Below the pieces are notes generated by a model. The model did not search any database, was not told where the DNA came from, and saw nothing but the letters and a program-made list of their open reading frames with translations. From the NCBI GenBank assembly GCA_018902545.1, contig JAHIQM010000019.1, positions 1 to 64,000 of the forward strand: a stretch of DNA of 64,000 bases, read 5' to 3'. A program made the position numbers and the translations under genes. This DNA is from Pseudomonadota bacterium. Lineage in GTDB: Bacteria > Desulfobacterota > Desulfovibrionia > Desulfovibrionales > Desulfomicrobiaceae. Positions 28,276 through 36,469 of the stretch are shown here, piece by piece (positions within the stretch are counted from its first letter, which is position 1; each line of letters starts with the position of its first letter).

Positions 28276-28579
28276 GGTGTCTCCTGGCCGAAGCGGCACG
28301 TTTCGGAATGCTCAAATTCTGTGATTGGTTCTTTTTCATGTTTCTTCTGCTTTTGGGAATTCAGGCCGGGGCGACAAGTATTTGCTTCCAGACCATCACT
28401 GCCAAGCGCAAAGCAAAGCCTATTTTTCTTTTACTTGCTTTTGGCGAATGATCAATGTAAAAATTATACGATCATACAAATATTGGTAAATCAGTGAAAA
28501 AAGATACGAAAAATCAAATTCTGCGTGTCGCATGCACCTGCCTTGGGCCAATTTCACTCGTCCAAGGAAGGTGATGCCC
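28276..28579. promoter_or_regulatory. Divergent control region of the signalling cluster
   Basis: These 304 bp are AT-rich in the middle and contain no gene. Both the HD-GYP gene and the kinase operon must be transcribed from here. A dyad GATCAATGTAAAAATTATACGATC (about 28449-28472, stated as GATC...GATC arms) stands near the centre and could be a regulator site. I cannot assign -35/-10 boxes with certainty. Confidence 0.4.
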
Positions 28580-31420
28580 ATGGATAAAGTCATCAGCCTG
28601 TTTCGCGAGAAGCAATCCTGGCTCATGGAGAGGATTCTCGGATACGCCACGGAACATGGCTATGCCCGCCACACATCGACTCTGCTGGAAGCATGGCGAC
28701 ACTCCATAGCAGGCCTGACGGAGGCCCTGGACACGGCGCTTTCAAGCACTGGCGAAGACTTTGCAAATATCACCGTTGATACGGACTGGAGTCACGACCC
28801 AGTCACCCGTTTCAGCATCGAGGAGTCCCGCAAGCATCGCGAGCGCGGCGTATCGCTGGGCATGTTTCTGGGTCTGTTTATCTATTACCGCCAGACCTAT
28901 CAGGACTGCCTGCGCGAGTTTCTTCCCCCGGGAGCGGAGCGGGACCGTTTGGAGCATCTGGTGGTGCGCCTTTTTGACCGCATGGGCGCGGCCTTTTGCG
29001 TCCAGTGGGCGCAATCCAAGGATGAAACCGTCATGGCGGGCATGTCCTCCATGCTGCGATCCATGACGAATGAGAAGAATCGCTACCTTGCTTTTTTTGA
29101 AAGCGTTACGGCTCCGGTCATTTTCGTAGACAGTTCCGGCGCCATTGTAGATCTCAATTCCGCCGCGGCCAGGCTCGTCAACGCGGACGCGAGGCCCGGG
29201 CAGGAATACTACACCACTGAGTCCGGAAACATGTCCGAAAGGCTGACTCAAAAACAAGTCGAGGACGTTTTTCCCTGGCTGGCGGAGTTGGTGCGTATCG
29301 GTCTGAGCGTGGACGATTCGCCCACGGAGCGTGAAGTGTCTTTATCCGGTCCGCTCGCAGAGAGGCATTTCAGGGCGGTTTTCAGCACGCAGCCTGGTGT
29401 GTCGGCGACGGCCATTGTTTTTTCCCTTATCTTGTACGAGGAGACCGAAGAGCGCCAAGCCAGAGAGCTTGTCATCAGGGCCAAGGAAGAATTGGAGCGC
29501 ACCTTCGACACCATCTCGGATCTTGTTTTTCTGGTCGACAACAGCTGCACCATCCTGCGGGCCAACAAGGCCCTGGCGGATCAGCTCGGGGTGTTGCCCA
29601 GGGATCTCATCGGGCGATTCTGCCGGGACGTGTTGGGATGCACCTTTTGTCTGGATCCGGACGAAGGCTGTATCCCCGATGGCGTTCCCGTTTCATTCCA
29701 GAAGATGCCGGGCAAATTTCATGTCAATCGCAATGTCCTTCGCGATGGAGAGGGAAATTCCTTTGGCAGTGTTTTCGTGGCCCGCGACGTGACCGTCATG
29801 GAGCGCATTCAAGGGACGCTTCTGAATATCGAAAAAAAGTACAAGAATATTTTTGAAAATGCTCGGGAAGGCATTTTCCAGAGCACGCCCGAAGGGCAGT
29901 TCCTGAGCCTCAATCCATCCATGGCCCGCATCTTCGGTTTTGATTCGCCCCAGGAAATGCGGGCAAGCTTTACGGATATCGGCAATCAGATGTACGTCTT
30001 TCCCGAAGACCGAAGGCGCTTACTCGAAGAAGGACTGGCCACCGGAGAGATGGCAAACAGGGATGTGCAGATGCGGTGCAAGGACGGCTCGGTCTTCTGG
30101 GCTGAATTGAATGGACGGGTAGTGTTTGATGACCAAGGCCAGGTGGACTATTTTGAAGGGTTTTTGTCGGATGTGTCCGAGCGGCACCGGTTTATCGAAG
30201 AGCTGGCGCAGAGCGAAAAACGCTTCCGAAGCCTGGTGGAGACAATGAGTCAGGGGCTCGTGCAGATTGATGACCAGGGTGTACTCATCTACTGCAACGA
30301 CCACTTCTGCGAGTTGGTGGAGGTTTCCCGGGAGGATATGCTGGGAGAACCCCTGGCCTCGCTGATTCATCCCGACGACACGGAAGTCTTCGGGGGGCTC
30401 CTCAGTTATGGCCTTGACCCGACACCCGGAGTGCATCTTGATATCCGCTTCAAGAGGAGGGATTCCCACGCGTTCACGATTGTAACTCCGGTGCGCTTTT
30501 TACCCCAGCAGGAGGACGAGCGGGGGTTTTGGCTGCTGGTCATGGATGTCACCCAGCGCAAGCTTCTGGAAGGCCAGTTGCTGCAGACCCAGAAATTGGA
30601 GGCCATCGGTCAGCTCGCGGCGGGCATTGCTCACGAGATCAATACCCCGACCCAGTATGTGCTCAACAACATGTGGTTCATCAAGGAATCCATCGAGCAT
30701 CTCCACGACGCCCTTGTCCATCACGATGAGTTCTTTGATCGGATCGCGGCCGAGCCGGCTCTGCTTGGTGAGGTCGCGGCGCTGCGCACCTTTGATGTCG
30801 ACCGTCAGATCTCCTTTTATCTTGAGGAGTTGCCGACAGCAATCTCCGAAACTCTGCAGGGACTGGAGCGGATCACCGCCATTGTCGGCTCGGTCAAGCA
30901 GTTCGCCCACCCCGGTCACGAAATGCAGCAGGATGTCAATCTCAACACGCTGGTGGAAAGCACCGTCAACCTGTCCCGCAACGAATGGAAATACGTGGCG
31001 CAGATGACCACGGACCTGGACCCGGAACTTCCTGTCGTGTCCTGCCAGATGCAGGAGATAGGGCAGGTGCTCCTGAATCTCGTCATCAATGCCGCGCACG
31101 CCATTGTCGATGTCGGGGGCGAAAAAACCGGGGCCACGGGTAACATCAGCATCAGCACGCGCCTGCAGGGCGAGTGGGCAGAGATTCGGGTGCAGGACAC
31201 GGGAACCGGTATCCCCGAGCATGCGCAGGGGCATATCTTCGAACCTTTTTTTACGACCAAGCCGGTGGGCATGGGCACAGGCCAGGGGCTCTTTATCGCT
31301 CATCGCGCGGTGGTCAAGAATCACGGCGGGACTATCAGCTTTGAAACCGGGGCCGAAGGCACAACCTTTATCATCCGGTTGCCTTTGGCGGGCAAGGGAC
31401 GGGACGGGGAGCATGCATAA
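28580..31420 (+). CDS. Multi-PAS sensor histidine kinase
   Basis: This is a 946-residue cytoplasmic kinase without membrane segments. Residues 1-165 form a helical N-terminal sensor region of unknown type. Four PAS-like domains follow (AFFESVTAPVIFVDSSG; ERTFDTISDLVFLVDNS, which includes a CTFCLDPDEGC patch; KNIFENAREGIFQSTPEG; FRSLVETMSQGLVQIDDQG). The HisKA domain carries His685 in GIAHEINTPTQYVL, and the ATPase domain has NLVINAAHAI, DTGTGIP and GMGTGQGL. AAGGAAGG fits the ATG at 28580 better than the ATG at 28574. It heads the five-gene operon with two cyclases, a B12 protein and a response regulator, and probably phosphorylates the neighbouring receivers. Confidence 0.92.
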   Translation: MDKVISLFREKQSWLMERILGYATEHGYARHTSTLLEAWRHSIAGLTEALDTALSSTGEDFANITVDTDWSHDPVTRFSIEESRKHRERGVSLGMFLGLFIYYRQTYQDCLREFLPPGAERDRLEHLVVRLFDRMGAAFCVQWAQSKDETVMAGMSSMLRSMTNEKNRYLAFFESVTAPVIFVDSSGAIVDLNSAAARLVNADARPGQEYYTTESGNMSERLTQKQVEDVFPWLAELVRIGLSVDDSPTEREVSLSGPLAERHFRAVFSTQPGVSATAIVFSLILYEETEERQARELVIRAKEELERTFDTISDLVFLVDNSCTILRANKALADQLGVLPRDLIGRFCRDVLGCTFCLDPDEGCIPDGVPVSFQKMPGKFHVNRNVLRDGEGNSFGSVFVARDVTVMERIQGTLLNIEKKYKNIFENAREGIFQSTPEGQFLSLNPSMARIFGFDSPQEMRASFTDIGNQMYVFPEDRRRLLEEGLATGEMANRDVQMRCKDGSVFWAELNGRVVFDDQGQVDYFEGFLSDVSERHRFIEELAQSEKRFRSLVETMSQGLVQIDDQGVLIYCNDHFCELVEVSREDMLGEPLASLIHPDDTEVFGGLLSYGLDPTPGVHLDIRFKRRDSHAFTIVTPVRFLPQQEDERGFWLLVMDVTQRKLLEGQLLQTQKLEAIGQLAAGIAHEINTPTQYVLNNMWFIKESIEHLHDALVHHDEFFDRIAAEPALLGEVAALRTFDVDRQISFYLEELPTAISETLQGLERITAIVGSVKQFAHPGHEMQQDVNLNTLVESTVNLSRNEWKYVAQMTTDLDPELPVVSCQMQEIGQVLLNLVINAAHAIVDVGGEKTGATGNISISTRLQGEWAEIRVQDTGTGIPEHAQGHIFEPFFTTKPVGMGTGQGLFIAHRAVVKNHGGTISFETGAEGTTFIIRLPLAGKGRDGEHA

Positions 31421-33265: not shown

Positions 33266-34366
33266 ATGGCTGAACTGATGGCCCAAGCCGAGAGGCTGCC
33301 AAAGGTTTCTACCGAAGCGGCGCGACACTATGCGGAGCTGGAAGACGTACTCCTGGACGCGGTCAACGCGCGCATGACGGCGCTGACCGGTCTGGCTGAT
33401 CTCATCGGCGGCAATCCCGTGGAAGTCATGCTGACCAACCATCGCTACCATGCCTCCTTCATGACCACCGTGTTTCATTTCGGGAGCTACGGCCTTTTGG
33501 CCAAAACTCTGCCCTGGGTTTACCGGACCTACCATAACCAGGGCTTTGCCCATGCCTATTTCCTTCTGGAGCTTGAGGCCTGGCGGGATGCCATCCGCGA
33601 GGCCATGCCGGAAGACGGCACGGAAATACTTTTTGTCTACGAGTGGATGCTCGCACGGCACAAGGATGTGGTCACGCTCTCTTTGCTACCGGCCGAAGAT
33701 ATGGCGCTTGCGGATGAAAAGTGGCGGTCGGCCTCTGAAGAACTCACTGCCGCGCTTTTGGCCGGTGATGTAACGACGTGTCAGGGCTTGACCAGGCGCA
33801 TGGTTCGGAACGCATCGGAGATGGTCGAATTCTTCGTTCATGTCCTGCAACCGGCGCTGTACACTATCGGCGCGCGCTGGGAGAACGGAGTGATACGCGT
33901 GGCCCAGGAGCATCTGGCTTCGGCCGTTGTGTCCCGCATTCTGGCGTCCATCCCGGTGGCGGAATTCGCCGAAGTCACGTCGCGAGGCAATGCCGTGGTC
34001 AGCGCTGCCAACGAATTTCATGAGGTAGGGGCCTGGATGGTCGCCTATTGTCTGGAGAGTGACGGATGGGACGTTCGATATCTTGGGGCGAACCTCCCCG
34101 GCGAGGATCTTTTGGCCTTTGTGCGCGCCGAAAAGCCCGATCTGCTCTGCCTGTCCGTGACCATGGCCTTCAACCTTGCTTCGGTCAAAAGGATCATCTC
34201 TGGCGTGCGGGCTGAAACGTCCCTGGCTCAGACAAAGGTTCTTGTTGGCGGACAGGCCCTGCTGAACGACCCTTCGTTGGCGCATGATTTGGGCGCCGAT
34301 GCGTTTGCCGGGGATTGCAAGGACGCCATCGAAGCGGCCAGAAGCTTTTGTAGACGGGAGGAATGA
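33266..34366 (+). CDS. MerR-less CarH-like cobalamin-binding sensor
   Basis: This is a 366-residue soluble protein. Residues 1-160 are a helical part of unknown type. Residues about 165-235 form a B12-binding_2 cap with the CarH signature W-x9-E-H (Trp205, Glu215, His216, in ARWENGVIRVAQEH). Residues about 238-366 form a B12-binding Rossmann domain with the axial-ligand motif E-x-H-x-x-G (His252 in NEFHEVG), then LCLSVTMAF and VLVGGQAL. In CarH these features bind adenosylcobalamin and respond to green/blue light, but here no MerR DNA-binding domain is present. AAGGAGGG precedes the ATG at 33266. The stop overlaps the following GGDEF gene, so it probably controls that cyclase by contact. Confidence 0.9.
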   Translation: MAELMAQAERLPKVSTEAARHYAELEDVLLDAVNARMTALTGLADLIGGNPVEVMLTNHRYHASFMTTVFHFGSYGLLAKTLPWVYRTYHNQGFAHAYFLLELEAWRDAIREAMPEDGTEILFVYEWMLARHKDVVTLSLLPAEDMALADEKWRSASEELTAALLAGDVTTCQGLTRRMVRNASEMVEFFVHVLQPALYTIGARWENGVIRVAQEHLASAVVSRILASIPVAEFAEVTSRGNAVVSAANEFHEVGAWMVAYCLESDGWDVRYLGANLPGEDLLAFVRAEKPDLLCLSVTMAFNLASVKRIISGVRAETSLAQTKVLVGGQALLNDPSLAHDLGADAFAGDCKDAIEAARSFCRREE

Positions 34367-35301
34367 TGGATTTTTGCACACGCATTTCCTGGACGCGGGT
34401 CCTGGCGGAATTCTTGGAGCGCGCAGACAGTCTTGTGGTGATCCTGGCCGATGCAGAGGGCCGCATCGTGGAGTGCAATCTGGCCTTGATGCGCTTTCTG
34501 CATAAAGACGCGCGCCCCCTGGGCAGGCTTCTGGGTGAGATATTTCGGTCTACGGATGGCACGATTCCGGATTTTTGCGCGTTCGGCCCCGACAATCCGC
34601 CCCTGCCCCAGATCCTGAGGCTGCGCGGCAGCGACGATGTGTTCAAGGTGACCTGCTCCGTTCAGGACTCGGAGATGCTTGTCCTGGCCGAGCGCATAGG
34701 TTGTTCCAACAACGTGGTCATGCAGACCATGTCCTCACTGACCAACGAGCTGGTCGGCATCGGCCGCGAGCTGTCGCGCAAGAATCGGGAGCTCCGGGAA
34801 ACCAAAAGTCGGATCGAAGCCATCAGCCGCACGGACTCTCTGACCGGCCTTGCCAACAGAGGCTTTTTCATGGAGCGCCTTCAAGAGTCCATTTCCCTGG
34901 CCGATCGGCATAAGCAGGAGCTTTGTCTGCTCATGGCCGATCTTGACCACTTCAAGCGGGTCAACGACACGCATGGCCATGACGCGGGGGACAGGGTCTT
35001 GCAGGCCTTTTCGGCGATATTGAGCCGCTCATGCCGCAAAGAGGATCTTGCGGCCCGCGGAGGTGGCGAGGAATTCCTCGTGCTGCTGCCCATGACAAAC
35101 GAGGAGGATGCCTTGCGCATGGCCGTTCGGATTTGCGCCTCCATGCGCTTGCTTGATGTCCTGGAGCAGGGTGCGCCGGTCACGGTCAGCATAGGTGTGG
35201 CCTGCCATCATCACGGAGGCAGCCCCGATCAGGTGCTTGGCCGCGTGGATCAGGCCTTGCAGCGTGCCAAGGAGCAGGGGCGCGACCGGGTCACCCTGTG
35301 A
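34366..35301 (+). CDS. PAS-GGDEF diguanylate cyclase coupled to B12 sensor
   Basis: This is a 311-residue protein with an N-terminal PAS-like fold (ADSLVVILADAEGRIVECN), a short coiled linker (GRELSRKNRELRETKSR) and a GGDEF domain with GGEEF at about residues 233-237. RKED five residues before it is a complete I-site. It should be an active, product-inhibited cyclase. Two ATGs overlap the B12 gene stop; the second at 34366 has the better distance from GGAGG, so the start and stop overlap in TGATG. This is tight translational coupling to the B12 sensor. Confidence 0.92.
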   Translation: MDFCTRISWTRVLAEFLERADSLVVILADAEGRIVECNLALMRFLHKDARPLGRLLGEIFRSTDGTIPDFCAFGPDNPPLPQILRLRGSDDVFKVTCSVQDSEMLVLAERIGCSNNVVMQTMSSLTNELVGIGRELSRKNRELRETKSRIEAISRTDSLTGLANRGFFMERLQESISLADRHKQELCLLMADLDHFKRVNDTHGHDAGDRVLQAFSAILSRSCRKEDLAARGGGEEFLVLLPMTNEEDALRMAVRICASMRLLDVLEQGAPVTVSIGVACHHHGGSPDQVLGRVDQALQRAKEQGRDRVTL

Positions 35302-35335: not shown

Positions 35336-36469
35336 GTGAGCGAAAAAATTCTTTTTGTGGATGATGAGAAATTTGTGCTCGCAACATTTAGGCGCAATCT
35401 GCACAGGCATTTCAAGATTGAGACGGCCGAAGGGCCCATGGCGGCGCTGCAGCAATTGGAGACCAACGGACCCTTTGCAGTGATCGTCTCCGATCTGAAA
35501 ATGCCGAAGATGAACGGGGTGGAACTCCTGAGCCTGGTCAAGAGCCAGTATCCTGATACGATCCGCATCATGCTCACCGGCCAGGGGGATCTGGACGCGG
35601 CCATGGCGGCCGTGAATCAGGGCGCGATCTTTCGTTTTCTGACCAAGCCCTGTTCCCCGGAAGCGCTGCTGAGCGCCGTAAACGACGGCCTGGGCCAGCA
35701 CCGCTTGGTAATGGCCGAGAGGCAACTGCTGCAAGGCACTCTGCGCGGCTGCATTCAGGTCTTGTCGGAGCTTTTGGCCCTGGTCAGCCCCAAGGCCTTT
35801 GGCCGGGGAGAGCAGGGCAAGGCGTTGGTCTCTGAGATCGTGCAGATTCTGAAGCTCGAAGGGTCGTGGAAGTATGAGCTGGCGGCCATGCTCAGCCAGA
35901 TCGGGTGCATCACCCTGCCGCCGAAAATTCTGGAGCAAAGGATTTCCGGAAAAAAACTATCCGCCGAGGAGGAGCAGATTTTCCTGATGCATCCCGGAAT
36001 CGCGGGGAACCTGCTCCGCAATATTCCCAGATTGGAGAGCGTGGCCGAGATGGTCTCCGGCCAGGAACTGCCCCTGGCAGACGGACCCACTCCGGGCGCG
36101 ATGATCCTCAAGGCCGCATTGGATTTCACGGACATGACGTCGGCCGGAATATCCGAAGATGAGGCCTTAACGCGCATGCGCGAACAGCCGAAAGTCTATG
36201 ATGCCAGGGTTGTCAATGCGCTGTGCGAGGCGCTGGGCAGGAGAAACAGGAGCGAGATGCAGTGTCTGGCCATCAGTGAATTGCGCGAAGGCATGGTCCT
36301 GATCGATCCCGTGGTGAGCGGCAAGGGCGCGGTGCTGATGCAAAAAGGCCAGGTCATCACCAGCGCCGCCTTGGCGCGTTTCAGCAACTTTGGAGCGATC
36401 CTGGGCATCAGGGAGCCGATCAGCGTTCTGGTCAAGGTGGAGCAGAACGCGCTTGCCGACGCGGAATGA
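35336..36469 (+). CDS. Response regulator with degenerate HD domain
   Basis: This is a 377-residue protein. Residues 1-125 are a receiver (KILFVDDEKFVL; Asp in IVSDLKMPKMNG; FLTKPCSPE). Residues about 130-290 align with HD-GYP proteins, but the HD site reads MLSQIGCITLPPK in place of LHDIGKI-IP, and HHE/GYP are absent (SGQELPLADG). It can therefore not hydrolyse c-di-GMP in the normal way. The last 60 residues (ISELREGMVLIDPVVSGKG, ITSAALARFSNFGAILGI) resemble the small protein at 39770-40123. The GTG at 35336 has GGAGG four bases ahead; it was chosen because the receiver begins there. It ends the kinase operon and may work as a phosphorylation-dependent adaptor. Confidence 0.88.
   Translation: MSEKILFVDDEKFVLATFRRNLHRHFKIETAEGPMAALQQLETNGPFAVIVSDLKMPKMNGVELLSLVKSQYPDTIRIMLTGQGDLDAAMAAVNQGAIFRFLTKPCSPEALLSAVNDGLGQHRLVMAERQLLQGTLRGCIQVLSELLALVSPKAFGRGEQGKALVSEIVQILKLEGSWKYELAAMLSQIGCITLPPKILEQRISGKKLSAEEEQIFLMHPGIAGNLLRNIPRLESVAEMVSGQELPLADGPTPGAMILKAALDFTDMTSAGISEDEALTRMREQPKVYDARVVNALCEALGRRNRSEMQCLAISELREGMVLIDPVVSGKGAVLMQKGQVITSAALARFSNFGAILGIREPISVLVKVEQNALADAE

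Follow-up and report, generated by a model that had tools for sequence, protein, structure and literature searches.

A putative photocobilin-like cobalamin sensor paired with a signalling-helix diguanylate cyclase, and a proposed mechanism for its control in trans

How would a CarH-type cobalamin-binding domain (CBD) deliver its signal in a protein that has no DNA-binding domain? Two overlapping genes in the genome of a Desulfomicrobiaceae bacterium raise this question (Table 1); positions refer to the window, the whole stretch of 64,000 nucleotides that was analysed. The initial annotation had described the first gene product as bearing a CarH-type B12 photoreceptor signature coupled to a diguanylate cyclase (DGC), and its basic observations were confirmed. 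Translation of the 366-aa product places W205, E215, H216, E250, H252 and G255 where they had been reported, Pfam detects no HTH or MerR domain, and the sensor stop (TGA, 34364-34366) overlaps the start of a reading frame with GGEEF and an RxxD I-site, whether this begins at ATG 34363 or, as TGATG, at ATG 34366. An SD-like AAGGAGG precedes the ATG of the sensor.

Table 1 Features of the sensor-partner gene pair, in window coordinates
Feature	Position	Strand	Basis
Sensor gene: globin-like domain and CBD, 366 aa	33266..34366	+	ORF translation, stop included
N-terminal all-helical domain, sensor residues 1-145, remote photoglobin homologue	33266..33700	+	Profile match
CarH/photocobilin-type CBD	33719..34363	+	PF02607 and PF02310, photocobilin relatives, AF2 model
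Partner gene: PAS-S-helix-GGDEF diguanylate cyclase, 312 aa, overlaps sensor gene	34363..35301	+	ORF
PAS-like domain of partner, residues 1-116	34363..34710	+	Weak PAS_8 match and AF2 model
Signalling (S-) helix of partner, residues 117-156	34711..34830	+	Single helix in model, conservation
GGDEF domain of partner, GGEEF and RxxD I-site	34831..35298	+	PF00990, E 1.3e-45

The sensor matches B12-binding_2 (PF02607) at residues 158-227 and B12-binding (PF02310) at residues 244-358, which make up a four-helix cap with W205, E206 and E215-H216 and a Rossmann domain with H252 and G274xxxP278. Its motifs read G202-x2-W205-E206, E215-H216 (W205-x9-E215-H216), N249-E250-F251-H252-x2-G255 and G274-x3-P278. 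Among 48 full-length homologues drawn from many phyla, W205, E215 and H252 are each found in 48/48 and H216 in 47/48, and E206 is invariant. In a sequence alignment, W205, E215-H216 and H252 fall on W61, E71-H72 and H108 of the photocobilin SasPcob, all of which contact adenosylcobalamin (AdoCbl) (PMC10979010). The Wx9EH motif is absent from 5 of the 7 other PF02310 matches of the same genome (L001 and L008 lie outside this count), and, given its conservation among the homologues, the motif is not a chance occurrence. For the CarH equivalog NF052513 (NCBIfam), whose cut-off is 400 bits, the sensor reaches 72.

The nearest solved structures by sequence are the photocobilins 8j2w/8j2x, followed by CtMerR 8jbs, which are light-tested CBDs (PMC10979010, PMC11796333). 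An AF2 model of the sensor (pLDDT 92.5, pTM 0.86) aligns with photocobilins 8j2y/8j2w at Z 25 and 2.0-2.2 Å over 205-207 residues (VIA-align) and has CtMerR too among its best fold matches, results that concern the CBD, since this domain dominates the whole-model Foldseek and VIA match lists. The SignatureFinder signature of light-responsive CBDs is present in its GxxW element (G202 and W205, 48/48 each), its EH element (E215-H216) and its GxxxP element (G274-x3-P278; G in 47/48, P in 42/48). At the GxxH element, the sensor has N249-x2-H252, with Asn in 44/48 homologues, Gly in 2/48 and the His in all 48, and the published signature (PMC11796333) would miss the family on account of this single Gly-to-Asn change (NxxH). 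An AdoCbl adenosyltransferase gene is present in the genome. The CarH-type cobalamin pocket of the initial annotation is supported, and AdoCbl binding and a light response are predicted for it.

The N-terminal ~140 aa of the sensor have no Pfam match and contain the invariant residues N58, H59, H62, W84, Y98 and Y125. A profile of 32 such domains matches a profile of 6 photoglobin domains from CBD proteins with Prob 90 and E 1.5e-6 (hhalign), at a score of 41.7 over 101 columns, against maxima of 19.6 in 119 column shuffles and 17.7 in helical and other controls; the score stays at 34.5 or above when any one sequence is removed. One of the 6 photoglobins, L135, matches the globin that binds biliverdin in SasPcob (E 1.7e-5), an HMM of the N-terminal family finds the photoglobin-CBD protein L157 (E 4.4e-6), and the helix order in the AF2 model is compatible with a globin. 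Single photoglobins compared with the domain mostly fail to match it (Prob 0.3 for L144 alone, about 80 for L128 and L154), and PDB sequences give no useful match to the profile (best E 0.086, LH1 beta). The homology is convincing at profile level only, and by this measure the domain is photoglobin-derived, as a remote homologue. The sensor as a whole consequently appears photocobilin-like rather than a CarH that has lost its HTH; the initial annotation was right about the CarH-type pocket and had overlooked the photoglobin-like domain in front of it.

Is the association of this sensor with the downstream gene accidental? Homologue loci were gathered by the sensor motifs only, in one pattern search and not as a census, so the pairing was not selected for. 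Among 49 loci with a fused sensor gene and at least 600 bases downstream (L090, L108, L114 and L093 were added by reading), 47 have a same-strand S-helix partner directly after the sensor, mostly overlapping it, and the other 2, which have no adjacent partner, are close Desulfamplus sisters. Many of the homologues derive from MAGs and may carry incorrect taxon labels. Within the bacterium's own order, 7/7 sensors, the present one included, have a PAS-GGDEF partner. When a PAS-plus-helix profile was run on 101 genomes of the order (E 1e-5), 28 matches were obtained; all 24 that reach the helix adjoin a CarH-type CBD, which in one case (G035) is a 3' remnant, and the remaining 4 are weak and PAS-only. 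At split loci, in Bacteroidales and others, the CBD, a PAS-helix-kinase and a stand-alone N-terminal domain are encoded by three neighbouring genes. The sensor and its partner thus have the look of a two-protein sensing unit that is portable, and not of a one-off. As a side observation, at L156:7889-8134 a receiver-domain start lies in frame with the last ~36 CBD residues, immediately ahead of a PAS-helix partner that is intact, and this sequence is best read as a deletion remnant of a sensor.

The output attached to the partner is not constant. The 47 partners comprise 29 with GGDEF, 15 with a CxxC..HxxC module and 3 with a histidine kinase, and the sensor tree, a quick one with SH-aLRT support only, implies at least 6 switches of output type, two or three of them required by branches with good support. 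L093 (CxxC..HxxC) and L096 (kinase) have sister sensors and very similar PAS-helix regions followed by different outputs. The c-di-GMP synthase proposed in the initial annotation is supported as an operon-coupled partner of a kind that the sensor keeps across phyla; the annotation had overlooked that what is conserved for coupling across loci is the signalling helix, behind which the outputs are exchanged, and not the cyclase. The CxxC..HxxC module, which has no Pfam or NCBIfam match, is an undescribed output module, perhaps metal-binding; the C-termini of these partners follow PICxxCKxIRDDxGYWxxxExYIxxHSxAxFSHxxCxxC (L080:3136-3759, L100:7094-7711, L114:4430-5047 and others).

In the present partner, the PAS-like domain has a weak PAS_8 match (E 0.008) and a PAS-like alpha/beta order in the AF2 model, and it is conserved in partners with three different outputs. 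The S-helix, with the consensus LxNELxxxxRELxxKNREL, is a single helix spanning residues 116-156 in the model; 80 distinct S-helices have a common heptad core together with the outward residues N127, N128, E129, R135 (76/80) and N141 (66/80). Some partners, such as L121 and L155, have no PAS domain and retain the helix, which weakens the PAS as the coupling element. The GGDEF domain carries the active site GGEEF (234-238) and, five residues upstream, the I-site RxxD (R225-D228), both invariant in 25 partners, and it is predicted to be a c-di-GMP synthase with a product-inhibition site. At L130:5950-7602, an N-terminal domain with a broken CBD stands ahead of a PAS-helix-GGDEF gene, an arrangement in which the globin-like part and the cyclase persist without the cobalamin domain.

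Taken together, we consider it fairly probable that the locus encodes a photocobilin-like two-protein module, in which the globin-CBD sensor switches the output of its partner through the S-helix in trans. The sensor would bind AdoCbl base-off, with H252 as the lower ligand and the adenosyl group surrounded by W205 and E215-H216. Once light has removed this group, or when AdoCbl is absent, the CBD cap and the oligomeric state of the sensor would change. The presence of E206 at the position of TtCarH H132 suggests a light state that is water-ligated, as in SasPcob, and not bis-His. By analogy, the sensor may dock in trans on its partner's coiled-coil S-helix, encoded by the overlapping gene, and docking would shift the register or dimerisation of this helix and thereby switch the attached output, here the GGDEF cyclase. 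From the example of AbDPcob, we presume that light activates.

Two precedents make this mechanism more than a guess. Isolated photocobilin domains alter DGC activity in trans in vitro (PMC10979010), and in the AppA-PpsR crystal complex the AppA SCHIC, a domain of CBD fold, binds PpsR at the long helix that follows a PAS (PMC9144470). In fold, the CBD of the sensor matches the AppA SCHIC (4hh3) at Z 21.5 and 7te2 at Z 19.2. In AerR-CrtJ and AppA-PpsR alike, the partner on which a CBD-fold protein acts in trans has a PAS and a long helix, the helix being the docking site in PpsR; they differ from the present pair in that the partner is a DNA-binding regulator, and AppA binds heme and senses light via BLUF. 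A cyclase behind a CarH-type domain had been put forward as a new output, a claim that has to be withdrawn because AbDPcob, a photocobilin-DGC fusion, is inhibited in the dark and activated more than 10-fold by light (PMC10979010). Light-responsive CBDs with DGC, GAF, MEDS and HTH domains have also been mined (PMC11796333), and the coupling of photoglobins to CBDs is likewise known, as is its connection with signalling domains, from work cited in PMC10979010.

Set beside these systems, the sensor resembles the photocobilins SasPcob (8J2W) and AbDPcob (8J2Y) in its W/EH/ExH CBD and globin domain, and AbDPcob also in the DGC output found at this locus. It differs from them in the N-terminal position of the globin (globin-CBD order), which is strongly diverged, with D270 replaced by N58; in the cyclase, a separate PAS-S-helix protein from an overlapping gene with outputs that vary among loci; and in a source genome without heme oxygenase. 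With CarH/LitR and CtMerR (8JBS) it has the CBD fold and the AdoCbl-contact residues in common, whereas the MerR DNA-binding domain is missing and E206 replaces TtCarH H132. It is therefore a photocobilin-like variant, neither CarH nor strictly a photocobilin. In BBAG-2 clusters (PMC10151467), as in the split loci described above, the globin and the B12-binding protein are encoded separately within a cluster; unlike those loci, they are associated with bilin reductase genes and not with S-helix outputs. Control in trans via a CBD-specific signalling helix with swappable outputs was not found in the literature searched, nor was the NxxH variant. A 2022 photoglobin paper (CSBJ) outside that literature, which reportedly agrees that photoglobins are coupled to CBDs and connected with signalling domains, may list the subfamily.

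The sensor might instead read the supply of AdoCbl or the redox or alkylation state of cobalamin, with the pocket kept for discrimination of the adenosyl ligand and not for light, a reading that we regard as rather unlikely. Anaerobes and sediment organisms often carry homologues, the 7/7 fused-sensor genomes of the order are without heme oxygenase, and no carotenoid or photosynthesis genes occur among the neighbours examined, including the 10 neighbours of the cassette in phototrophs, where photosynthesis genes were sought. Two further points count against the two-protein module favoured here: its relatives are largely anaerobes, for which light sensing has no obvious benefit, and a strong homologue is present in only 1/15 congeners searched. 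Nevertheless, every light-tested CBD with the same residue set is photoactive (PMC11796333, PMC10979010), and the hosts of the family include eight phototrophic purple sulfur bacteria.

A further reading, compatible with the two-protein module favoured here, is that the sensor is a full photocobilin, in which biliverdin or a different linear tetrapyrrole, bound by the globin-like domain, would extend the sensing range to red light. Besides the photoglobin homology itself, W84 (48/48) aligns with SasPcob W296 through the profile and L135, and W296 contacts both bilin and corrin. In two relatives, G092 and G200, heme oxygenase genes (L052:2717-3346 and L154:2020-2673) lie about 2.5 kb and less than 0.4 kb away from genes for globin/CBD proteins, which hints at the use of bilins in those organisms. 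Against this, the position of D270, the key biliverdin anchor of SasPcob, is aligned by the same chain with N58, an Asn invariant across the 32 N-terminal domains, and PF01126 heme oxygenase has no match in the bacterium's own genome or in 6 others of the order with a fused sensor. With neither a canonical heme oxygenase nor the anchoring Asp, bilin binding in the source organism is doubtful and biliverdin unlikely, and we hold the full-photocobilin reading to be distinctly unlikely. N58 was also considered as a mark of heme oxygenase loss, an idea rejected because the heme oxygenase-linked copy of G092 is likewise Asn.

Finally, sub-threshold NCBIfam matches to the corrinoid proteins MtgC and MtbC might suggest that the sensor is an ordinary shuttle protein for methyl-corrinoids and that the neighbouring cyclase is unrelated to it. 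This is highly improbable, given Wx9EH, ExH instead of DxH, photoreceptor CBDs as the closest matches, no adjacent methyltransferase gene, and a partner conserved at 47/49 loci.

The two-protein module with its helix in trans may belong to a broader pattern, which we find plausible while stopping short of calling it probable. Split B12 photoreceptors would be widespread and horizontally mobile; the globin-CBD sensor and its dedicated docking helix would be kept while the effector (cyclase, kinase or the undescribed CxxC..HxxC module) is swapped behind it; the globin of anaerobes without canonical heme oxygenase would have lost biliverdin and taken another ligand or a mechanical role; and the published signature would have missed a family found over many phyla. 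If so, B12 photochemistry would feed c-di-GMP and kinase signalling via a portable protein-protein interface in anaerobes and phototrophs alike. It would also allow a direct test of whether signal transfer from CBDs amounts to one helix surface serving many outputs, and would offer a green-light tool in two parts, with interchangeable coiled-coil-driven effectors.

The surroundings of the gene pair hold further signalling genes. Upstream, at window 28532-31420, lies a multi-PAS histidine kinase whose homologues adjoin the same cassette in G013 (L039) and, in a shorter form, in G018 (L040); the family may thus conserve a larger cluster of signalling genes. The next gene downstream (window 35336-36469) encodes a REC-HD_5 protein that is probably an inactive HD-GYP, as its HD pair is replaced by SQ ('AMLSQIGCITLPPKIL') and the HHxxxDGSGYP stretch is absent. 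A homologue of this protein also adjoins the cassette in G018 (L040).
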